This document shows positions 1,631-35,113 of a stretch of 45,803 nucleotides of DNA, one piece after another; position 1 is the stretch's first letter, and each line of letters begins with the position of its first letter. A program made the translations under genes and the position numbers. The stretch comes from Desulfobacula sp. (GTDB lineage Bacteria; Desulfobacterota; Desulfobacteria; Desulfobacterales; Desulfobacteraceae): NCBI GenBank assembly GCA_013792075.1, contig VMSR01000019.1:1-45803 (forward strand). Reading direction: 5' to 3'. Below the pieces are notes generated by a model. It saw only the letters and a list, made by a program, of their open reading frames with translations. It was not told the origin of the DNA and ran no database searches.

Positions 1631-2011
1631 GTGGCAATGGACACATCCATCAAGGTTCTGATTGTTGACGATTTTGCTACCATGCGCCGTATTCTTAAGA
1701 ATATTTTAAAACAACTTGGTTTTAAAAATCTTGTGGAAGCTGATGATGGGACAACTGCCTGGGAGATTCTGGAAAATCAGGCCATCGACCTTATAATATC
1801 AGACTGGAACATGCCCAAAATGACCGGCCTTGAATTGTTAAAAAAGGTGCGTGCAGATTCCCGGTATGCCAGAAAGCCTTTTCTGATGGTAACCGCGGAA
1901 GCCCAGAAGCAGAATGTTATTGAAGCGGTTCAGGCAGGGGTTTCCAATTATGTGGTCAAGCCGTTTACGGCAGAGGCCATTTCAGACAAGCTTGCAAAGA
2001 TTTTAAAATGA
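1631..2011 (+). CDS. cheY: CheY-like single-domain response regulator
   Basis: A stand-alone receiver domain of 126 residues. All catalytic positions are present: D13-D14 acidic pair, D58 phospho-acceptor in SDWNMP, the Thr of VTAEA, and the Lys of VVKPF. The sequence closely follows canonical chemotaxis CheY, which when phosphorylated binds FliM and changes motor rotation. AGGAGG at 1620-1625 fits a GTG start at 1631; the ATG at 1637 is an alternative. The stop overlaps the start of the next gene by 4 bases (ATGA), so the two are probably translationally coupled. cheX immediately upstream would provide its phosphatase. Confidence 0.9.
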
Positions 2012-21020: not shown

Positions 21021-21080
21021 ATCCCATATATCAGGTATGTTTCAAGTTCAAATAACCAAGTGCAATATGTGGGAGATATT

Positions 21081-21695
21081 TTGACTGAAGACCTGCTAGA
21101 AGAAATGGATGGCGACGGGGAAGAGGGTTCTTTGGGCATGATGAGAGCTCAATCCCAAGCGTCAGTGGAAAAAAAATCATTTGTACAACGGTTTTCGGGG
21201 GTTAAGAAAAAACATCTTTTCATTCTGGTGGCGGGTGTTGTCCTGGTGGGCATGCTTGCAGGGGGCGCCTTCTTTTTTTTGGGGGGAACGAAAGAAAAGG
21301 TTTCCGGGCCCGGGACACAAGTTGTGGAGAAAACCAGTCAGGCTTCCCCTGATAAATCGGTGAATCCGGATATAACAGGCGAGGTTTTTTTTGAAGATAT
21401 TATCGCCCTGGAGCCCTTTGAGCGTATCCCGTTGAAGGGGAACTCTGCCATGCAATTTGTCAGTCTTGATATTTCCCTGGAATTGATTGATCACACCCAG
21501 AGAAAACAGGTGGAATCCATGCAGGAAAAAATCCGAAAAATTATCATGGGTCAGGTCAGGGAGATGGGATGGCTTGAGTTGAGAAATCCAGAGGGCAAGC
21601 TCCAATTAAAATATGATCTGCTTGGGCGGATCAATGCCCTCTTTCCCAGGGTCATGGTCAGAGATGTTTATTTTACTAACCTAATAATGCAGTGA
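21081..21695 (+). CDS. fliL: Basal body-associated protein FliL
   Basis: About 204 residues. The best start is TTG at 21081, because GGGAG at 21071-21075 is at ideal spacing; GTG codons at 21060 and 21069 are less well placed. An acidic cytoplasmic stretch of about 40 residues precedes one membrane helix (HLFILVAGVVLVGMLAGGAFFFL). The periplasmic domain has the FliL form (AMQFVSLDISLELIDHTQ, then LFPRVMVRDVYFTNLIMQ). FliL rings surround the stator and increase torque or stability. It leads the fliL-fliM-fliN-fliO-P-Q-R operon under its own sigma-54 promoter. Confidence 0.9.
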   Translation: MTEDLLEEMDGDGEEGSLGMMRAQSQASVEKKSFVQRFSGVKKKHLFILVAGVVLVGMLAGGAFFFLGGTKEKVSGPGTQVVEKTSQASPDKSVNPDITGEVFFEDIIALEPFERIPLKGNSAMQFVSLDISLELIDHTQRKQVESMQEKIRKIIMGQVREMGWLELRNPEGKLQLKYDLLGRINALFPRVMVRDVYFTNLIMQ

Positions 21696-21702
21696 TGATG
21701 CC

Positions 21703-22695
21703 ATGAGTGAAATTTTATCCCAGGACGAAGTTGACAGTCTGTTAGACGGTCTGGATTCAGGCGAGGTTGAAACAGAGAAGGATAGTGAAGTCCCCGAGTC
21801 GGTTGAGGGGATTATTTCCTATGATTTTACCAGCCAGGATAAGGTGGTCAGGGCAAGAATGCCCACCTTTGACGTGATCAATGAGCGGCTTTCCAGGGAA
21901 GTGCGCGCCACCTTGTCCTCTTTGCTGCAAACCAATGTGGATGTCAGTGCCAATCCCTTTGATACCTTGAAGTTTTCAGAATTTGTGAGAAGCCTTCCCG
22001 TGCCCACAAGCCTCCATGTTTTCAGGATGGAGCCCTTAAGGGGGCACGGCCTCGTCGTTCTCGAAAGCCAGCTGGTATACAATCTGATTGATACGTTTTT
22101 TGGCGGAGAGGCCCTTGGAAAAGCCCGTGTGGAAGGACGGGAATTCACCAGGATCGAAGAGGTCATGATTCGAAAGGCCGTGCTTGCGGTATTGAAAAAT
22201 ATTGAGGCCTCCTGGGTCCCCATTGAACCGGTAAAGGCTTCTCTCATTCGATCGGAAATGAATCCCCAGTTTACCGCCATTGTGCTGCCCACGGATCTGG
22301 TCATCGTCACCCGTTTTGAAATTGAGTTGGAACAGGCTGCCGGCAACCTGGTGGTCTGCTATCCCTATTCAATGATTGAGCCCATGCGCAATAAATTGTC
22401 CTCGGGTGTTCAAGCAGAAATAGAGGAGATCGATACCAATTGGCGCAGGATGATCAAGGAAGTCATCCTCAACTCATCCGTGGATCTTAGGATTCAGCTG
22501 GGAAAGACCGAGGTAACCGGTGAAAAAGTGCTGTATATGCAAAAAGGGGATGTGATTCAATTGGACAATGCCGCAGCCGATCCCTTGTTCTGTTTTGTGG
22601 GCGGGTTGGAAAAAATGACCGGATACATCGGCGTTCAAAGAGGATTCCAGGCATTTAAGATAGAAGAAAAAATAATAACAGATTGTGAGAATTAA
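21703..22695 (+). CDS. fliM: Flagellar motor switch protein FliM
   Basis: A 330-residue C-ring protein. It begins MSEILSQDEVDSLLDGLDSG, the conserved N-terminal motif that binds phospho-CheY in studied bacteria. The middle domain includes NPFDTLKFSEFVRSLPVPTSLHVF and the GHGLVVLESQLVYNLIDTFFGG stretch. The C-terminal domain is SpoA/FliN-like (LRIQLGKTEVTGEKVLYMQKGDVIQL). It converts CheY binding into a switch of rotation. The N-terminal motif matters in this locus because a second protein (31297-33156) carries many copies of it. Confidence 0.96.
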   Translation: MSEILSQDEVDSLLDGLDSGEVETEKDSEVPESVEGIISYDFTSQDKVVRARMPTFDVINERLSREVRATLSSLLQTNVDVSANPFDTLKFSEFVRSLPVPTSLHVFRMEPLRGHGLVVLESQLVYNLIDTFFGGEALGKARVEGREFTRIEEVMIRKAVLAVLKNIEASWVPIEPVKASLIRSEMNPQFTAIVLPTDLVIVTRFEIELEQAAGNLVVCYPYSMIEPMRNKLSSGVQAEIEEIDTNWRRMIKEVILNSSVDLRIQLGKTEVTGEKVLYMQKGDVIQLDNAAADPLFCFVGGLEKMTGYIGVQRGFQAFKIEEKIITDCEN

Positions 22696-26420: not shown

Positions 26421-28514
26421 ATGGCAGCAGAAGGAACCGGCATTCTTGCCGGATTAAAAAGCGAAGCCTCGGATATTTTAATGATCGTTGCCTTTATCGG
26501 CATCCTCATGGCAATGATTCTGCCCATCCATCCCATGATCCTGGATTTTTTCCTGGCATTGAATATTTCTTTTGCCATTATGGTGCTCATCACCACCATG
26601 TATACGACCAAACCATTGGAGTTTAGTATCTTCCCTTCGCTGTTGCTGGTACTGACCCTGTTCCGGCTTTCCCTGAATGTGGCCTCCACCCGGTTGATCC
26701 TTTTACACGGAAGTGAAGGTCCTTCGGCTGCCGGAGCCGTTATCATGTCATTCGGCAGTTTTGTGGTGGGCGGAAATTATGTGGTGGGGCTGGTTATTTT
26801 TATCATTCTGGTGCTCATTAATTTTATGGTCATCACCAAGGGTGCGGGCAGGATTGCAGAGGTGGCAGCCCGGTTTACCCTGGACGCCATGCCCGGAAAA
26901 CAGATGGCCATTGATGCGGATCTCAATGCCGGCATGATTGATGAGGTTGAGGCCAGGGACAGGCGGAAAGCCATTGCCCGGGAATCTGAATTCCATGGCG
27001 CCATGGACGGAGCCTCCAAATTTGTCCGGGGGGATGCGGTTGCCGGGATCGTGATCACCATGATCAATATTGTGGGCGGCTTTGTCATCGGCGTGCTCCA
27101 GCAGGGCATGGAGATGAGCGAAGCCTTGGCCAATTACACCCTTTTAACCGTCGGAGACGGCCTGGTCTCCCAGATCCCCGCCTTGCTCATATCGGCAGCG
27201 TCTGGGCTCCTGGTGTCCCGGTCCGGTGCCGAAACCAAGATGGGTGCGGAATTTGCCAAACATTTGCTCGCCAGTCCCACACCGGTATTTATAGGGGCTG
27301 TCATTGTTTTTAGCATGGGCCTTGTGCCCGGACTTCCCACCCTCCCCTTCATGACCCTGGGGCTTGTCATGGGAACCATTGCCTGGTATTTTTTGCGGGC
27401 GGATGAAAAAACGGCGGAAGATCCCCTTATTGAAGCCGGAGGCGAAGCGGCTGCCACGGGTCAGCCGGAAGACGTTGACCATTTGCTGACCTTGGACACC
27501 ATTGAACTGGAAGTGGGCTACGGCCTTATCCCTTTGGTGGACAAGCAGCAGGATGGGACGCTTTTGGGAAGGATCCGGGCCATCCGGCGGCAGTTTGCAA
27601 CGGAAATGGGCATTATTATCCCGCCCATTCATATCCGGGATAACCTGAACCTGAATCCTGCCCAGTACCGGCTGATGATCAAGGGGGTGGAAGCGGCTGC
27701 CACTGAATTGATGATCAACCATTACATGGCAATGGATCCGGGTGGTGTTGCCCAGGAAATAGAGGGGATTAAAACCGTGGAACCGGCCTTTAATCTGCCG
27801 GCCCTATGGATACCCATTGACAAGGAAGAAGAAGCAAAATTTGCAGGATATACCGTGGTGGACAATTCCACCGTGATTGCCACCCATTTGACAGAGATCA
27901 TCCGGACAAACGCCCATGACCTCCTGGGCCGCCAGGAAGTTCAGCATTTGATGGACAATCTTGCCAAAAGCAGCCCCAAGGCAGTGGAAGAGCTTATCCC
28001 CAATCTGCTGACCATCGGCGTAGTGCAGAAGGTATTGCAGAATCTTTTGAGGGAACGGATTTCCATCCGGGATTTTCTCACCATCGTGGAAACCCTGGCC
28101 GATTTTGCTCCCATGGGCAAAGATCCGGACCTATTGACCGAATATGTCCGGCAACGGATTGCAAAGGGGATGCTGGCGCCCTATCTGCAGGAAGGTAAGG
28201 TGCTCCAGGTGCTCACCCTTGATCGGAACCTTGAGGAAATCTTGTCTAAAAATATCAAACGTACCGACCACGGTTCCTACCTGGCATTGGACCCCACCCT
28301 TGTGGGCCAGGTAGTTGATGCGGTGTCAAAACAGGTAGAGCGCCTTATCGGCATCAATACCCAGCCGGTAGTCATGACCATACCGACCCTCAGGCGGCAT
28401 TTCAGAAAATTGATTGAACCTTCTCTTCCCACTGTTTTTGTGGTATCCCATGCCGAGATAGTGGACAATATAAATTTACAGGCCATTGGAAAAGTGAGTT
28501 TAAAAGATGAATAA
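26421..28514 (+). CDS. flhA: Flagellar export gate protein FlhA
   Basis: A 697-residue protein. The N-terminal half has about eight membrane helices and the FHIPEP family stretch (PLEFSIFPSLLLVLTLFRLSLNV, and VKGAGRIAEVAARFTLDAMPGKQMAID-like sequence near 150). The C-terminal half is the cytoplasmic nonamer domain that receives chaperone-bound substrates (LELEVGYGLIPLVD-like, GRQEVQHLMDNLAKSSPKAVEEL). Length and motifs are complete. flhF overlaps its 3' end by 8 bases. Confidence 0.96.
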   Translation: MAAEGTGILAGLKSEASDILMIVAFIGILMAMILPIHPMILDFFLALNISFAIMVLITTMYTTKPLEFSIFPSLLLVLTLFRLSLNVASTRLILLHGSEGPSAAGAVIMSFGSFVVGGNYVVGLVIFIILVLINFMVITKGAGRIAEVAARFTLDAMPGKQMAIDADLNAGMIDEVEARDRRKAIARESEFHGAMDGASKFVRGDAVAGIVITMINIVGGFVIGVLQQGMEMSEALANYTLLTVGDGLVSQIPALLISAASGLLVSRSGAETKMGAEFAKHLLASPTPVFIGAVIVFSMGLVPGLPTLPFMTLGLVMGTIAWYFLRADEKTAEDPLIEAGGEAAATGQPEDVDHLLTLDTIELEVGYGLIPLVDKQQDGTLLGRIRAIRRQFATEMGIIIPPIHIRDNLNLNPAQYRLMIKGVEAAATELMINHYMAMDPGGVAQEIEGIKTVEPAFNLPALWIPIDKEEEAKFAGYTVVDNSTVIATHLTEIIRTNAHDLLGRQEVQHLMDNLAKSSPKAVEELIPNLLTIGVVQKVLQNLLRERISIRDFLTIVETLADFAPMGKDPDLLTEYVRQRIAKGMLAPYLQEGKVLQVLTLDRNLEEILSKNIKRTDHGSYLALDPTLVGQVVDAVSKQVERLIGINTQPVVMTIPTLRRHFRKLIEPSLPTVFVVSHAEIVDNINLQAIGKVSLKDE

Positions 28515-29625
28515 AAAAATCTTTCGGGCAGCCAATATCCAGGAGGCCCTTGCAAACATCAAGGAAGAGATGGGGGCAGAGGCCATGATTCTGTCCACCC
28601 GGAAAATCCCAAGAAGACCCCTGGATCCCTATGCAAAGGACATGTTTGAAGTGGAGGCCGGCGTAAAGGAAGATCCTTTCGCCAAAGAAAAGGGTGCCAC
28701 CCAGGTAGAAAAAGAAAACCTGATCGCGTCCCTGAAGGGCGATATCTCTGAAATTCGTGATATGATTTCCATTGCAGGGTTTGGCAGCGGCATCCAGACG
28801 ATTTTGTGCCGCCATTTTGAGTCGGTGGGGGTATTGGCCTCTTTTCTGCGGGCCGGGGTTAGTGAACGGCTGGCCATCGCCTTGATCGAAAAAGCGGGGG
28901 ATTGTCTGGATCCAAATCTTGAGCAGACCGAGCGGATCACGTTGTTGAAAAAAAATGTCATGACCCATTGTCTGGACCGGTTGTCGGTTAAGGATTTTTT
29001 CAATCGGAACAATCGTTCGGGAGTTCCCCATGTGGCAGCCTTTGTGGGGCCCACAGGGGTGGGGAAAACCACCACCATTGCAAAGCTTGCCGCCCTGTTA
29101 AGTCTTAAACGGAAAATGAAGGTGGGCCTTATTTCCATAGACAATTATCGTATCGGGGCTTTTGAGCAGCTCAAGGCCTATGCTTCTATCATGGGGCTTT
29201 TGTGTGTGCCGGCCTTCAGTGCCCAGGACCTTTCCTGTGCCTTGGAACGAATGAAATCAATGGATGTGGTTTTGATTGATACGGCCGGACACAGTCATTT
29301 TGACAAACAGAAAATAGATGAGATCCTCCAATTAATTAAGAGTGATTTTGGGATTTCCGTTCATTTAACCTTGAGTGTTACGTCTGAATCGATTAATATG
29401 AAGGAAGCAGCATCTGCGTTCTCTGTATTTAACCCTGATACCTATGTATTTACCAAAATAGACGAGACCAAAAGATGCGGTAAGATTCTGGATCAGGTAA
29501 ACAATCTTAACCTGCCTGTTTCTTTGATTACAAACGGTCAGAAGGTTCCTGAAGATTTAATTGTCCCGGATAAACAGACATTATTGAGAATCATTCTGGG
29601 AAAGGGACCCAAAGGAGAGGTATAA
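28507..29625 (+). CDS. flhF: SRP-type GTPase FlhF
   Basis: A 372-residue GTPase. The N-terminal B domain begins NKKIFRAANIQEALANIKEE. The G domain has the P-loop FVGPTGVGKTTTIAKLAALL (about residues 179-198), the SIDNYRIGAFEQLKAYA segment, the DTAGHSHFD motif and FTKIDETKRCGKILD. FlhF marks the pole for the first flagellar ring proteins. Together with FlhG next to it, it points to a polar, number-controlled flagellum. Its start overlaps flhA. Confidence 0.95.
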   Translation: MNKKIFRAANIQEALANIKEEMGAEAMILSTRKIPRRPLDPYAKDMFEVEAGVKEDPFAKEKGATQVEKENLIASLKGDISEIRDMISIAGFGSGIQTILCRHFESVGVLASFLRAGVSERLAIALIEKAGDCLDPNLEQTERITLLKKNVMTHCLDRLSVKDFFNRNNRSGVPHVAAFVGPTGVGKTTTIAKLAALLSLKRKMKVGLISIDNYRIGAFEQLKAYASIMGLLCVPAFSAQDLSCALERMKSMDVVLIDTAGHSHFDKQKIDEILQLIKSDFGISVHLTLSVTSESINMKEAASAFSVFNPDTYVFTKIDETKRCGKILDQVNNLNLPVSLITNGQKVPEDLIVPDKQTLLRIILGKGPKGEV

Positions 29626-29628
29626 AGG

Positions 29629-30522
29629 GTGGATCAGGCAAAAGGACTTCGACAAATCGCACGAACGGATGCCCTGGCCAAAAGTCAGGCACGTATGGCA
29701 TCCCATACAAAAAAATTTCCAAAGGTCATTGCCGTCACCAGCGGCAAGGGCGGGGTCGGGAAAACCAATATCGTGGGGAATCTGGCGGTTGCCATGACAG
29801 GTGCGGGGAAAAGGGTGATTATCATTGATGCGGACGTGGGACTTGCCAATATTGATATTGTCTTTAACCTGAGGCCCGAATACAGTATCCGCCATGTGGT
29901 CTCTGCTGAAAAAAGAATAGATCAGGTCATGGTGAAGACCCACCATGGGATCGGTATTATTCCGGGCGGTTCAGGGTTTGCAGATTTGACCCAGTTAAGT
30001 GAAGGGGAAAAGCTCACCCTGTTAAGCGAATTTGAGACCCTTTCGGATCAGGCAGATATTATTTTAGTGGATACCGGCGCCGGGATCTCTTCCAATGTTT
30101 TGTATTTTAATGCGGCATCGGACGAATGTATTGTTGTCGCGACCACAGAACCCACCTCCATTACAGATGCCTATGCCTTGATGAAGGTGATGTCCCAAAA
30201 ACATGGAACCCGGTATTTTAAATTAATTGTCAATATGGCGGATTCCGAAAAGGATGCCAAACGGGTGTATGCCTCTTTAAGCAATGCCCTGGATAAATTT
30301 TTAAAAACGGTTGTTCTCGAATATACAGGCTATATCCCCTTTGACCGGCAACTTCAACGGGCTGTCCAAAAACGGGCACTTGTGCTGGATGAATTTCCGG
30401 GTTCAACGGCGGGTGCTGCCCTGGAAAAGATTGCCAATACCCTTCTAAATGGAAAGGATCGAATGCATACCCAGGGGAATTTAACATTTTTTATGAACCG
30501 GGTGTTCCAAGCTGCAACGTGA
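29629..30522 (+). CDS. flhG: MinD-like ATPase FlhG (FleN)
   Basis: A 297-residue MinD/ParA-type ATPase. The deviant Walker A is TSGKGGVGKTN (residues 37-47), followed by IIIDADVGLANIDI. The GTG start at 29629 is supported by AAAGGAGAGG upstream and by the N-terminal DQAKGLRQI, the DQAxxLR element that stimulates FlhF GTPase in other bacteria. FlhG limits flagellar number by restraining FlhF and, in some species, the FleQ/FlrA activator. It overlaps fliA by 4 bases. Confidence 0.94.
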   Translation: MDQAKGLRQIARTDALAKSQARMASHTKKFPKVIAVTSGKGGVGKTNIVGNLAVAMTGAGKRVIIIDADVGLANIDIVFNLRPEYSIRHVVSAEKRIDQVMVKTHHGIGIIPGGSGFADLTQLSEGEKLTLLSEFETLSDQADIILVDTGAGISSNVLYFNAASDECIVVATTEPTSITDAYALMKVMSQKHGTRYFKLIVNMADSEKDAKRVYASLSNALDKFLKTVVLEYTGYIPFDRQLQRAVQKRALVLDEFPGSTAGAALEKIANTLLNGKDRMHTQGNLTFFMNRVFQAAT

Positions 30523-31280
30523 AACAGTATACACAAAACGATATGGAAAAAAAGCAGACAAAAAAAGGCTTTGAGTGGCGCCAGGCCAGCATTGTTGAAT
30601 ATGCGTATCTGGTCAAGCATATCGCTTACCGGTTTGCCATACGATTGCCTTCCAGCGTGCTGTTCGATGAATTGATTTCAGCCGGATCTCTGGGGCTTAT
30701 TGATGCGGTGGATAAATTTGATCCTTCAAAACATGTCAGTCTGAAAACCTATGCCCAGTACAGAATTAAAGGCGCCATTCTGGATGAATTGCGAAGCATG
30801 GATACCTATTCCAGGTCCATGCGCAAAAAAATCCAGGACATCACCAAGGCAACCAAAGAGGTTGAGGATACAAAGGGTTCTCCTGCAACGGATTTGGAAA
30901 TAGCGCAATTTCTGGGTGTGGAGATAGAAACCTTCCAGGATATGCTCACAGGGATTCATGGAGCAGCTGTGCTTAGTCTGGATGAATTCATTAAAACAAA
31001 AAAAAATGATACCTTTTCCCAAACCCGATTTGAGATGGGGGTCAAGGGGGATGAGAACCCTGCCGATCAGTTTGAAAGGGAGGAACTCAAACATGTTCTG
31101 GCCAAGACCATTCAGACGCTCACCAAAAAAGAGCAGATAGTGGTTTCTCTCTACTATTATGATGAATTAACCTTAAAGGAAATCGGGGAGGTCCTTTCTT
31201 TGACAGAATCCCGTATCTGTCAGATTCATACGTCGATTTTGATCAAGTTGAAAGCCAGACTCCAGGATGTTGATATTTAA
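30519..31280 (+). CDS. fliA: Flagellar sigma factor sigma-28 (FliA)
   Basis: A 253-residue sigma factor of the FliA group. Region 2 includes LPSSVLFDELISAGSLGLIDAVDKFDPSK and SLKTYAQYRIKGAILDELRSMD. Region 4 includes LTKKEQIVVSLYYYDELTLKEIGEVLSLTESRICQIHT. It directs late genes such as flagellin. GTG at 30519 overlaps the flhG stop; ATG at 30543 is an alternative start and neither has a strong ribosome site. No flgM anti-sigma gene is seen in this window. Confidence 0.95.
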   Translation: MKQYTQNDMEKKQTKKGFEWRQASIVEYAYLVKHIAYRFAIRLPSSVLFDELISAGSLGLIDAVDKFDPSKHVSLKTYAQYRIKGAILDELRSMDTYSRSMRKKIQDITKATKEVEDTKGSPATDLEIAQFLGVEIETFQDMLTGIHGAAVLSLDEFIKTKKNDTFSQTRFEMGVKGDENPADQFEREELKHVLAKTIQTLTKKEQIVVSLYYYDELTLKEIGEVLSLTESRICQIHTSILIKLKARLQDVDI

Positions 31281-31296
31281 AGAATAGAGGTCATAT

Positions 31297-33156
31297 ATGT
31301 CTGATCCAAATTTAGAAGAGGAAAGTTTAATATCCCAGGATGATATTGATAAGCTCTTGGATTCATCTTCCATTGAAGAAGCGGAAGGAGAGCTTGAAAG
31401 TCGGAAGAACAACACTCCAGACCTGGAGGACCTGGGAGAATTATCCCAGGACGACATCGACAGCCTCATGGGTGGCGCTGATGATGCGGCTGATGAGGAT
31501 ATAATGGGCGAGCTTTCCCAGGATGATATCGACAGTCTCATGGGCGGAAACGATGATACGGCGGATGCAGATGAGATGGGAGAACTTTCCCAGGACGACA
31601 TAGACAGCCTTATGGGTGGAGCTGATGAGGTGGCGGATGAAGATGCGGCGGATGAGGATGAGATCGGGGAACTTTCCCAGGAGGATATTGACAGTCTCAT
31701 GGGTGGCACCGATGATGCGGCGGATGAGGATGAGATGGGAGAAATTTCCCAGGACGCTATCGACAGCCTCATGAGCAGGGATACTGGGGAGGAGGATATT
31801 GATTCTTCTGATCTTGCCGGTGAAGAAGAGATCGATGAATTGATTTCCATGGACGATATCCAAAGCCTGATAGGTGAAACCGAAGGGGAAATACCGGATT
31901 CAGACGGGAAAACAGAAGATTCTTTAGCGATATCGGAAGTGCCGGACGGGGCGGCGGTCGTTTCCGATGATTTTGTCATTGATGCCGCCGAAGCGCTGGA
32001 CGTATCCCAGTGTCTGATTACCCAGGCCACCCTTGATGAATTGATCCGAAATGCCCCCGGGCCTGGGGATGTGCCAGATACCATTATATTGGATTCTGAT
32101 CCCGAGCCCGACATCCCAGTTTCAGCCGGGGATGCGGATTCAGAGGAGCCCTCATTGGAACCAGTGGTTCTGGACATGGATGTTCAATCAGATCCCGGTT
32201 CCATGGATGTACCGGGGTTGGATGATCTGGACATGGATGTCTCTGACGATGAATTCGAAGGGTTGCTGGATGCTGATGATATCCAACTTGATTTGGGAAG
32301 CCCGGCCGGTGATGATGTTACCCAGGAGGATATTGATGCTTTGCTCCAGGAGTCTGATGAAGAGGAGGATCTCATGGGGGATGAGGAGGATATCCTTATT
32401 TCCCAGGATGATATAGACACCCTGTTGATGGCGGCTGACCAGGAAGATGAAGATGTTCTTGGCGATATGATGGGGGATGACATGGACGCCGGCATGGATG
32501 ATGATTATGAGGACGAAGATATCCTGGACATGGAGGGAGAAGCGGATACCGGGTCCAGGGGAGATCAGGTTGTGCTGGAAGGCGGTGACGATGCAAAGCC
32601 GGATGAAGGCGGTTCCAAACCCTCCGAAAAGCGCTGGAAAAATTTGTTTAAATCCAAGCTTGTGATTGCCGCAGCATCCGCCATCCTTGTGCTGGGAATT
32701 TCGGTTCCATCTGTTTATTTCTTGTTTTTTTCCCATGATCCTGCCCAAATACCTGAAAAAATGCCTGTTCCCATGACGATGGAAGCGCCGGGGAGAGATA
32801 TTGAAGTGGCCAGTGTGAATATTGATACCCAAGCCATGCCGGAGGTTAAAAAATCCGGCAATATCATCCTCACTGATTTTGTCGTACTGGCCTCTGATCA
32901 ATCAAAGGACATGGCCTATGTTACCGTTGATATCTCTATTGATTATTCCGATCAAAGGGCATATCATGAAATAAATAACAATCTTTCTTTTTACCGGGAT
33001 CTGATCTATGAATCCATTCAAAAGAACCTTGTATGGGAAAAAAGAAACGAGGTAACAGAAGCGGATCTGATATGGGGGGTTGAAACCACATTGAAAAAGG
33101 TGTTGCCATCCAATTATATTGAGAGGATCAGTTTTAAATCCTTTCGGGCAAGTTAG
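31297..33156 (+). CDS. Membrane protein with ten FliM-N-terminus-like (SQDDIDSLM) motifs and FliL-like domain
   Basis: A 619-residue protein with no close relative recognised. Residues 1-450 are very acidic and hold about ten copies of a motif like SQDDIDSLMGG, beginning at S13, S50, S74, S98, S127, S151, S184, T242, T342 and S369. Five central copies are 24 to 29 residues apart. The motif equals the CheY-binding N-terminus of FliM (ILSQDEVDSLL in this window). One membrane helix spans about 455-478. The last 140 residues resemble the FliL periplasmic domain (NIILTDFVVLASD, MAYVTVDISIDY, then a terminal beta strand). It follows fliA by 16 bases. Docking of CheY-type proteins beside the stator is inferred, not shown. 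Confidence 0.8.
   Translation: MSDPNLEEESLISQDDIDKLLDSSSIEEAEGELESRKNNTPDLEDLGELSQDDIDSLMGGADDAADEDIMGELSQDDIDSLMGGNDDTADADEMGELSQDDIDSLMGGADEVADEDAADEDEIGELSQEDIDSLMGGTDDAADEDEMGEISQDAIDSLMSRDTGEEDIDSSDLAGEEEIDELISMDDIQSLIGETEGEIPDSDGKTEDSLAISEVPDGAAVVSDDFVIDAAEALDVSQCLITQATLDELIRNAPGPGDVPDTIILDSDPEPDIPVSAGDADSEEPSLEPVVLDMDVQSDPGSMDVPGLDDLDMDVSDDEFEGLLDADDIQLDLGSPAGDDVTQEDIDALLQESDEEEDLMGDEEDILISQDDIDTLLMAADQEDEDVLGDMMGDDMDAGMDDDYEDEDILDMEGEADTGSRGDQVVLEGGDDAKPDEGGSKPSEKRWKNLFKSKLVIAAASAILVLGISVPSVYFLFFSHDPAQIPEKMPVPMTMEAPGRDIEVASVNIDTQAMPEVKKSGNIILTDFVVLASDQSKDMAYVTVDISIDYSDQRAYHEINNNLSFYRDLIYESIQKNLVWEKRNEVTEADLIWGVETTLKKVLPSNYIERISFKSFRAS
31435..31785 (+). repeat. 72-base tandem coding repeats
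   Basis: Five imperfect DNA repeats encode the central SQDDIDSLM motifs. The conserved tcccagga-type cores begin at 31444, 31516, 31588, 31675 and 31747, so the period is 72 bases with one 87-base step. The units have diverged mainly at third codon positions and in the spacer. Confidence 0.85.
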
Positions 33157-33171
33157 ACATAGGGGGTTTTT

Positions 33172-33474
33172 ATGACAACCATTCCCGGACATAGCCAGAT
33201 GCTGCAGCAGTCAGGTATCGCCCAGGAAGTGAGCAACCAGGGGCATACCCTTAAACCGTCTCCGGATCAGGCGATTGCAGCCCAGCAGGCCCTGAAGATT
33301 ATTCAGGGATCCACTGTTCAAGGCGCTGAAGAATCCGAGCGACTCAAGAAGCAGAAAGACAAAAAAGCATCAAAGCAAGCTGCAGACAAAAGAAAAAGAA
33401 AGGCAATCAACCAGGAAGAAGAATTGGCACTGGAGCCGGATGCACCGGGCCGGTTGCTGGATACAAGGGTATGA
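33172..33474 (+). CDS. Small unknown protein in flagellar operon
   Basis: A 100-residue protein with no recognised domain. The first half is Gln/Ala/Ser-rich (HSQMLQQSGIAQEVSNQG) and the second half strongly basic (LKKQKDKKASKQAADKRKRK), ending in an acidic tail. There is no signal peptide or membrane helix. It is 15 bases after the repeat protein and overlaps the next gene by 4 bases, so it is very likely co-expressed with the flagellar genes. Function unknown. Confidence 0.7.
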   Translation: MTTIPGHSQMLQQSGIAQEVSNQGHTLKPSPDQAIAAQQALKIIQGSTVQGAEESERLKKQKDKKASKQAADKRKRKAINQEEELALEPDAPGRLLDTRV

Positions 33475-34058
33475 CACAATTGGTCTCCCTTGAGTTTTTA
33501 ATCGCGGTCTTGTTTATCATTGATGTGTTTCTTGTGATTCTATTGATGTTATTTGTTAAACGGGTCGGTCACTTGAAAGCAAATTCCACGGTGGACGGCC
33601 AAATCCAAGCCCGACAAAATATCCGGGAAGGACAAGCGGTCTCAGAGTCTGCCCGGGAGATTATGGATATGCTGGAACCATTGGTTATGGAATCCAGAAA
33701 GGCTGCCTTAAGTTTTGATGAACAGATCCGGGAAAAAAGAAAACTCTCCAAAGATTTGAACGATGCCCTTGATACAAGAATTATCAGTATCAATCTGCTC
33801 TTGTCCAGGGCCAAAGCACTACAAAAAAAAATGGAAGACCGCCAGCAGACTATCCAGCAGACTGTCCCGGTTTTTAAGACCGTTCATGCCCCTTTCCGGG
33901 AAAGCAATGTCGTGGACCAGCAGAATCAGATTATTGATCTTTATTATCAAAATACAGATATTGACACCATTGCAGAAAAACTTTCAATCCCCAAAGGGGA
34001 GGTTCAATTGGTTATTGATCTTAAAGAAAAGTTTGTTGCAATGGAACAGGGTCGATGA
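33471..34058 (+). CDS. Membrane-anchored coiled-coil protein, DUF2802/DUF6115-like
   Basis: A 195-residue protein. A membrane helix lies at about residues 6-29 (EFLIAVLFIIDVFLVILLMLFV). A coiled coil follows, rich in Lys, Glu and Gln (EKRKLSKDLNDALD, ALQKKMEDRQQ). The C-terminal helix-turn-helix-like segment (IIDLYYQNTDIDTIAEKLSIPKGEVQLVIDL) resembles small DUF2802/DUF6115 proteins found near chemotaxis and flagellar genes. The start and stop overlap the neighbours by 4 bases each. Function is unknown; the family assignment is from memory of the C-terminal pattern. Confidence 0.65.
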   Translation: MTQLVSLEFLIAVLFIIDVFLVILLMLFVKRVGHLKANSTVDGQIQARQNIREGQAVSESAREIMDMLEPLVMESRKAALSFDEQIREKRKLSKDLNDALDTRIISINLLLSRAKALQKKMEDRQQTIQQTVPVFKTVHAPFRESNVVDQQNQIIDLYYQNTDIDTIAEKLSIPKGEVQLVIDLKEKFVAMEQGR

Positions 34059-35113
34059 TTTCTAAAATCCATATTTCCCCCCCTGAAATATTTGTTCAGA
34101 AAGAGACGGGTCCCTCGGTTGCAGCCCCTGTTTTTAAAAACAATCAGGTTGTCACGGCCAAGGTGTTGGGCCTGTTGGCCCAGGGAAAGGCACGGCTATT
34201 GATTGACGGACAGCCGGTGATCGCAAAGACCGGCATGCTTCTCAAACCCGGAGAAGAGCTTCGGTTAAAGGTGGTTGAGCAAAAGGATACGGTTTTGCTC
34301 AAGCTGCTGGAGCCCAAGCAGGAAGCGAAAACAAAGCAATTGGTTTCCCTGATTCGTTCTCTTTCAAAAAACAATGCATGGCCGGATATTGCCCGTTCAA
34401 AGATTCCGGAGCTGACAAATATTCTTAAAAAAACAGCCTTGCAATCGGGCAAAAGAGACGATGCCTTTTTACCCAGGCTCCTGGAAAACAATGGTCTTTT
34501 ACTGGAAAAAAAAATGGCTTCTCTCCTGAATGTTCAGGAGCAGGGACAGGTCAGGGCAGGACTGGATCAATTATTAAAACAGGACCTGAAAGGGGTGCTT
34601 TTAAACCAGTTGACTTTAGAAATGACCCGGGACGGGGGTGCTCAAAAAACGATTACCCGATTTTTGGATACCCTGGAAAACTTTCAACTGCTCAATACCC
34701 AGACCTCGGAGTCCGGCCGGTATCTGATTCCCTTTCCGGTTTTTGTCGGATCAGCCTTGAATTTTGGACAATTGCTCATTGATACCGGGGAAAAAAAACA
34801 GGACCAAAATCAGGAAAACCAAAAAATAATACGGATTTCCTTTCTTCTGGACATGACACAGATGGGGCCTGTGCGGGCGGATTTTTCCATATTGAAAAAG
34901 GCCATTACCGGCCGGTTCCTTTTAAACAATGACGATATATGCGACTATGTGAAAAATTTGATTCCCGAGTTGAAGACACGGCTTGCAAAGAGTGATTATA
35001 GCGTGGGGAATATTGATTGCCTCACGGCTGAAAGAACACAAATACAGCCCAATACCTTAATGGAATCCCTGTTCCAAAATCAAGATGATTCTGTAGTGAA
35101 CATTGTGATCTGA
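34055..35113 (+). CDS. Second FliK-like protein (YlqG-like)
   Basis: A 352-residue protein with no signal peptide. The N-terminal part includes VTAKVLGLLAQGKARLLIDG followed by a GMLLKPGEELRLKV segment. The C-terminal part (RISFLLDMTQMGPVRADFSIL, then a VKNLIPELKTRLAKSDYSVGNIDC helix-strand pair) follows the FliK switch-domain pattern of a 'leverage' beta sheet and final helix. In Firmicutes the pair ylqG-ylqH encodes a FliK-like and an FlhB-C-like protein, and the next gene here is such an FlhB-C protein. It differs from the main FliK at 15063. Role unknown; secretion-switch related by inference. Confidence 0.65.
   Translation: MISKIHISPPEIFVQKETGPSVAAPVFKNNQVVTAKVLGLLAQGKARLLIDGQPVIAKTGMLLKPGEELRLKVVEQKDTVLLKLLEPKQEAKTKQLVSLIRSLSKNNAWPDIARSKIPELTNILKKTALQSGKRDDAFLPRLLENNGLLLEKKMASLLNVQEQGQVRAGLDQLLKQDLKGVLLNQLTLEMTRDGGAQKTITRFLDTLENFQLLNTQTSESGRYLIPFPVFVGSALNFGQLLIDTGEKKQDQNQENQKIIRISFLLDMTQMGPVRADFSILKKAITGRFLLNNDDICDYVKNLIPELKTRLAKSDYSVGNIDCLTAERTQIQPNTLMESLFQNQDDSVVNIVI

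Follow-up and report, generated by a model that had tools for sequence, protein, structure and literature searches.

The window analysed here, i.e., the whole stretch of 45,803 nucleotides (Desulfobacula sp., assembly GCA_013792075.1, contig VMSR01000019.1, positions 1–45,803 of the forward strand), carries a flagellar gene cluster in which one gene raises a question of both partner and purpose: why should a second FliL-type protein of 619 amino acids (31297..33156, +) bear an array of short motifs resembling the peptide with which FliM docks CheY, and what might such an array bind? Phosphorylated CheY (CheY-P) is thought to act via one docking peptide per FliM molecule, with a further one on FliN/FliY in some bacteria and another on CheZ; FliL (PF03748) is a stator-associated, single-span, SPFH-like protein. 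No published description of a FliL with FliM-type repeats was found by a literature search, outside which most subscription journals lie.

Architecture of the array protein

The original prediction placed motifs of this kind at ten residues, and all ten are present, seven of them in strict form. Motif 1, SQDDIDKLL (residue 13; 31333..31359), is followed by three copies of SQDDIDSLM, i.e., motifs 2 (residue 50; 31444..31470), 3 (residue 74; 31516..31542) and 4 (residue 98; 31588..31614), and by motif 5, SQEDIDSLM (residue 127; 31675..31701). Motif 6, SQDAIDSLM (residue 151; 31747..31773), has lost the second acid, while motif 7, SMDDIQSLI (residue 184; 31846..31872), and motif 8, TQATLDELI (residue 242; 32020..32046), are degenerate; a site similar to the latter, TQE[TA][ML][DE].L[IM], is present in many relatives. 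The array, which lies entirely on the + strand, ends with motif 9, TQEDIDALL (residue 342; 32320..32346), and motif 10, SQDDIDTLL (residue 369; 32401..32427), and the 24-residue stretch around motif 10 is identical in another Desulfobacula locus (L064), the one relative returned by a single-protein scan of genome contigs. The strict pattern [ST]Q[DE][DE]I[DE].[LMI][LMI] matches seven of the ten sites, compared to a mean of 0.0004 and a maximum of 1 in 20,000 shuffles, and a loose pattern, composed with the ten sites already known, matches all ten (shuffled mean 0.0036). A chance origin of the motifs is excluded by these shuffles together with the genome pattern scan and its reversed-pattern control described below.

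Residues 1–450 carry a net charge of −149. As had been predicted, the array is followed by one membrane helix (residues ~455–477; 32659..32727, +), with a hydropathy peak at residues 455–473 and 454 residues ahead of the helix. Basic residues (K/R), KPSEKRWKNLFKSK, stand before this peak and the array should therefore be cytoplasmic, the protein being probably N-in as judged from its sequence. In a full-length AlphaFold model of low confidence (mean pLDDT 43), ten helices of at least four residues precede the membrane helix, one on each motif, and a single three-residue turn lies outside the motifs, a pattern that could mirror sequence preference only. An antisense ORF of 334 amino acids (31173–32177, −), rich in Ser, lies opposite the array and seems to owe its existence to the Asp/Glu-rich coding strand.

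Relationship of the C-terminal domain to FliL

The C-terminal domain, presumably periplasmic (residues ~521–619; 32857..33153, +), had been described as FliL-like. Against Pfam the array protein returned no family at E ≤ 1, FliL included, and against NCBIfam it returned the FliL model at E 0.036 only, so that the resemblance is firm at the level of the family and not in the Pfam scan of the single protein. A 31-member family profile of the C-terminal region (A1) matched a profile of 20 canonical FliL proteins from the same group of genomes with a probability of 98.1% (E 6.8e-14, 15% identity), and also matched FliL chains of solved structure, 9hmf (E 1e-6) and 7sgn (E 4.8e-6), and the window's own canonical FliL (E 7.6e-5). 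Furthermore, Pfam FliL scored above its cut-off in three orthologues (G047, G016 and G021) among the 39 genomes searched. A model of the C-terminal domain, built on a two-sequence alignment, was poor (pLDDT 55). The canonical FliL, encoded just before fliM and fliN (21060..21695, +; Pfam FliL E 3e-14), confirms that the array protein is an additional component, as had been claimed, and by profile comparison the latter is a second, diverged FliL paralogue. The cytoplasmic N-terminus of FliL is normally short, i.e., 2–28 residues in the eight species compared in one report (PMC10127578). The array protein has 454 residues before its helix, not 2–28, and is therefore classed as a FliL-like paralogue, not as FliL.

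Two points count against the CheY-P reading put forward below: a location at the stator would follow from this homology with a diverged FliL at 15% identity, and in the published fliL alleles described in the same report the N-terminal region affects motility and apparently not switching (PMC10127578). A third FliL-domain gene was observed on another contig of the same genome (G000:C124:33223-33516, locus L296; 305-codon frame, Pfam E 4e-8), and akin frames of 280–330 codons occur in many of the relatives searched.

Gene neighbourhood

Upstream of the array gene lie genes for the SRP-type GTPase FlhF (28507..29625, +), the MinD-like ATPase FlhG (29629..30522, +), which is two genes upstream and is a candidate alternative partner, and, directly adjacent, a FliA-type sigma factor (30519..31280, +). 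Downstream are syntenic genes for a small protein, a DUF6115 protein and a FliK-like protein (33172..35113, +), and the small gene, the DUF6115 gene and fliK are kept in most wider loci. The second FliL paralogue follows flhF-flhG-fliA in all 36 wider loci with readable upstream genes, and the FliA and FlhG genes are directly upstream in 17 of 17 loci of one set (G043 completed) and in 19 of 20 of a second, whose twentieth locus (G071) begins where its contig does. Among the array-bearing loci read, flhG and not cheY is the gene nearby, a point against CheY as the partner. As evidence for a partner the neighbourhood proved indecisive, because flhG lies near array-bearing and array-free members alike, the latter having the same neighbours.

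In three outgroup loci only (L135, L141 and L142), cheY stands between fliA and an array-free FliL paralogue, and its products are 63–66% identical to the window CheY. In another locus (L063, genome G030), fragmentation affects flhB and flhA as well as the array gene, with an unrelated ORF within flhB, and the array gene is seen to decay along with the flagellar operon.

Comparison of the motif with known docking peptides

The N-terminus of FliM and the C-terminus of CheZ are the two classic CheY-docking peptides; in E. coli, FliM begins MGDSILSQAEIDALLNG and CheZ ends ASQDQVDDLLDSLGF. The window FliM (21703..22695, +) begins MSEILSQDEVDSLL and, in agreement with the original prediction, has an N-terminal motif of the same type, SQDEVDSLL, at 21718–21744. 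The array meets the core SQ..[IV]D.LL, with L or M as its last residue, and on sequence grounds belongs to the same class as the FliM and CheZ peptides. The window CheY (1631..2011, +; 72 identities to E. coli CheY) is the proposed ligand and keeps A90, K92, Y106, V108, F111, T112, K119 and K122 (E. coli numbering), with T115 replaced by A, and I95, A99 and A103 by V, substitutions that count against CheY as the ligand; the residues listed presumably form the docking face, most of which is kept. The helical segment of FliM that engages the alpha4-alpha5 groove of CheY is reported to include its motif (PMC9126983).

The claim of a FliM-type peptide stands for the docking-class core, whereas the letters within it differ. 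FliM was compared in 59 of 60 loci, with 41 array-bearing genomes included (L218 has no motif, and the split FliM of G191 counts as two loci): position 3 is E in 59 of 59 and position 4 is V in 57 of 59. EVD is absent from the 457 array motifs and DID from the 59 FliM motifs. Position 3 is E in E. coli FliM and Q in CheZ, and therefore seems tolerant. The array would not be an exact mimic of FliM, its regular D-I as opposed to E-V being counted against CheY as the partner; the difference appears too regular for drift and may reflect another affinity or another partner.

The pattern SQDDID..L was scanned in 30 genomes, the window's own included, and returned 92 matches in 16 genomes, all of them inside the array gene, and a reversed-pattern control gave no match in the same 30 genomes. 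Matches were assigned by coordinates against gene frames, with two contig-end cases read individually, and the pattern is narrow, missing array-bearing genomes with other motif letters, such as G035 (SQ.DLD), G036 and G010. That the motif is common to many proteins of the window's own genome was ruled out, since a broader pattern found 12 sites, of which seven are in the array gene, one in FliM and four elsewhere. By eye, the ORFs at three of these four are phage-portal-like, cupin-like and a Prc-type protease, and for the fourth (L033) no forward-strand match was returned by script.

Across a phylum sample, SQDDID..L matched in 27 of 394 genomes, the control matches amounting to one, and these matches were interpreted apart from the window's own genome and G054. 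Among them, six genomes outside the order (L279–L282, L288 and L289) have a FliN with an N-terminal SQDDID/RQDDID[AGKR]L[LM], and looser versions occur in three further FliN (L144, L145 and L174); no such motif was found at the FliN N-termini examined from array-bearing genomes, that of G190 bearing a weak resemblance. The docking peptide may have passed from one motor protein to another.

Several further ORFs with the motif were encountered. Six of them (L268–L273), taken from stop codon to stop codon, have VSQDDID[ASN]LFG and a single further residue as their C-terminus, with zinc ribbons in the four that were scanned, a CheZ-like placement of a docking-type peptide on an unrelated protein. 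A 309-codon ORF with no clear Pfam domain (L267:741-1667, −) has two N-terminal motifs, SQEDIDAYL and SQDDIDALI, while a 59-codon ORF (L266) resembles only the first 28 residues of FliM (SQDDIDALL) and was not counted as a FliM with the exact SQDDID form because its 3-kb locus contains no further FliM. A 209-amino-acid motif ORF (L287) matched no Pfam family, another (L284) is of the Nif11 type, and the remaining phylum matches look unrelated by eye.

Conservation and selection

The array consensus is [ILV][ST]Q[DE]DID.L[LM]. Over 490 instances, taken from a first extraction that still contained fragments of the window's own gene, D stands at position 3 in 86%, I at position 4 in 87% and L at position 7 in 93%; the pattern used imposes Q at position 1 and leaves position −1 open, where I, L or V is found in 98%. 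The linkers between motifs are merely acidic, and the core is kept across families with unlike linkers; the spacing of motifs has a median of 35 residues (quartiles 29–57; 63 homologues, 457 motifs). Within the window, the nine motif codons of repeats 2–6 show a pS of 0.58 and a pN of 0.036 (pN/pS 0.06), compared to 0.52 and 0.27 (pN/pS 0.52) for the flanking codons of the same copies, over ten pairwise repeat comparisons that are non-independent. The motif thus differs almost only synonymously among repeats 2–6 and is under selection, and the anatomy of the architecture, both conserved and selected, is firm.

Distribution and origin of the array

The C-terminal region was found in 36 of 58 genomes, the window's own included, and by profile search 104 of the 289 class genomes and 75 of the 394 phylum genomes have homologues, many of the weaker matches in both being canonical FliL. 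Of 111 non-redundant homologues (E < 1e-8, loci available), 67 carry at least two motifs. The proposed check for the same architecture in other genomes thus gave, after removal of four fragments of the window's own gene, 63 array proteins with 457 motifs. Copies per protein range from 2 to about 25, and these counts are lower bounds, because some proteins are cut by locus or contig ends; the array gene of G043, for example, is broken at the end of a contig, and its two pieces carry 16 and nine motifs.

Homologues that keep the C-terminus and never the motif had been named as evidence against the original prediction, and 14 syntenic members without a motif do exist (L126, L127, L128, L130, L131, L135, L137, L141, L142, L162, L163, L170, L172 and L173), in four families of the order and outside it; yet, of the 19 families of the order from which a syntenic member was read, 14 have arrays (f1, f2, f3, f10, f14, f18, f21, f31, f33, f34, f39, f42, f44 and f55). 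A single motif occurs in family f16 and none in f4, f25, f49 and f59. A tree computed from 88 C-terminal domains sets canonical FliL apart as a group (98/92) and places the array-bearing proteins on one side of a supported branch (98/96), along with the two rows that have one motif and two zero-motif rows on very long branches. Because 14 syntenic relatives have no motif, the array is probably a later addition to an existing protein, and the simplest reading of the sequences is that this was an older, array-free FliL paralogue, in which copy number then changed freely. The tree is midpoint-rooted and the array label needs four changes, of which at least one is forced by well-supported branches, and for this reason a single gain of the array is uncertain, and the four array-free families of the order may instead have lost their arrays.

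Another short repeat, F[STA]G[NS]ELDE-like, was observed at the array's place in three array-free orthologues, with six near-copies in L173 (G181), two in L172 (G191) and one in L137 (G560). A scan of ten genomes finds the GNELDE form in one unrelated ORF as well (L251), and most other matches to a looser pattern of this type are FtsH-like by eye.

Candidate functions of the array

For the proposal that the protein, anchored in the membrane at the motor and built on a second, syntenic FliL paralogue, acts as a multivalent docking brush for CheY-P, belief and doubt are evenly matched. Its N-terminal tail of ~450 residues, acidic and probably disordered, would present a brush of short CheY-docking peptides that form helices, and the membrane helix and the FliL domain would hold this brush at the basal body, probably near the stator. 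Such a brush would bind CheY-P weakly at many sites, and would collect and buffer it beside the C-ring, where about nine usable peptides on a flexible tail would create a dense zone of weak CheY-P sites; in our judgement the motif spacing is wide enough for one small receiver per peptide. According to affinity and exchange, it could feed the switch, buffer noise or withhold CheY-P, and the number of copies, from 2 to about 25, could serve as an easily evolved gain setting. More doubtful, and put forward tentatively, is the specific form of a stator-anchored multivalent CheY-P antenna, which would concentrate CheY-P around each motor, couple stator occupancy to switching and constitute a third control place of chemotaxis, between kinase and switch. 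CheY binding by the array, its position at the stator and the sign of its effect, i.e., antenna, buffer or brake, are what we infer here.

Published precedents cover single steps, not the whole device. The FliM N-terminus may serve as a flexible tether that delivers CheY (PMC7355467), CheY-P bound to non-motor FliM is reported to leave less free CheY-P (PMC7064772), and the recruitment of stators is described as favouring the binding of CheY-P by the motor (PMC8440544). Surplus FliM in E. coli leaves motor bias nearly unchanged, since the motor remodels (PMC7064772), and additional docking sites therefore need not act strongly.

The alternative that survives best, and one absent from the original prediction, is that the tail mimics the FliM N-terminus to bind FlhG at the basal body, where FlhG would sense or limit flagellar assembly and number; this is rather unlikely, with a real chance of being correct. 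In Shewanella, FlhG binds FliM/FliN via the FliM N-terminus, and FliM and FlrA share one site on FlhG (PMC11236974, PMC12826062). The flhG gene lies two genes upstream not only in the window but in the array-bearing loci with readable upstream genes, and a motif unlike that of FliM could permit separate tuning. However, zero-motif relatives have the same neighbourhood, so that synteny is no argument for binding of FlhG to the array, and 10–25 sites per chain seem, in our judgement, odd for a counting ATPase. Binding of FlhG to FliM is, moreover, reported for monotrichous species, and the FlhG of B. subtilis binds FliY, not FliM (PMC12826062). The array motif also fits CheZ, a ligand of CheY, which is counted against FlhG, and CheY appears the more likely partner.

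Distinctly improbable is a HubP-like hub, in which the acidic tail, as a general organiser, would recruit several clients (FlhF, FlhG, CheY or chemoreceptor arrays) to the flagellated site and the FliL domain would replace LysM. HubP, too, combines a periplasmic domain with a single membrane region and a variable, acidic cytoplasmic part containing repeats, and FimV is described with an acidic part that has none (PMC12918733). The array protein, however, has no LysM or TPR family in Pfam and the reverse topology, and its nine-residue core is precisely conserved and of the CheY-docking type. The FimV C-terminal model matched in seven of 39 genomes, once above its cut-off, which is a weak test as none of 14 controls exceeded the cut-off either; in the window's own genome it gave one match below the cut-off (E 6.6e-4, 336-codon frame).

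That the protein is a motility regulator whose array amounts to no more than a long acidic spacer or a stator brake, its repeats being neutral products of slippage, is highly unlikely: tandem DNA repeats of 72 and 87 bases spanning motifs 2–5 (31433..31732, +) do point to duplication, and the FliL N-terminal region can inhibit motility (PMC10127578), but the motif codons are kept while linkers of the same copies diverge, and the same core is kept in families with unlike linkers.

The original prediction as a whole is partly supported. If a docking role is true, many bacteria of the order would control the local pool of CheY-P (or FlhG) at the motor itself, by means of a conserved membrane protein in which up to about 25 docking-type peptides per chain are tied to a FliL domain. 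The second FliL-type protein of sulfate-reducing bacteria would then point to an undescribed form of signal gathering at the flagellar base.

Comparison with known systems

The array protein shares with FliL a probable N-in topology, one helix, a homologous domain and a place in the flagellar cluster; it differs in its motif array and its cytoplasmic tail of ~450 residues, compared to 2–28 in the FliL proteins described (PMC10127578), and its gene sits after fliA, additional to the canonical fliL. HubP and FimV likewise combine a periplasmic domain and one membrane region with an acidic part in the cytoplasm, which in HubP is repetitive, although with the reverse topology, imperfect repeats of another kind, and LysM and TPR domains. 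The CheZ C-terminal peptide offers the similar core SQDQVDDLL, in one copy on a phosphatase, whereas the array protein has no CheZ domain. An N-terminal EIDAL-type motif makes FliY/FliN an example of a docking-class peptide on another motor protein (PMC6946799, PMC12826062), in a single copy and within the C-ring, unlike in the array protein. With the N-terminal peptide of FliM, finally, the array shares the SQ..[IV]D.LL core, a predicted helix and acidic surroundings, while it has many copies, mostly with D-I rather than E-V, in a protein that has no FliM middle or SPOA domain.
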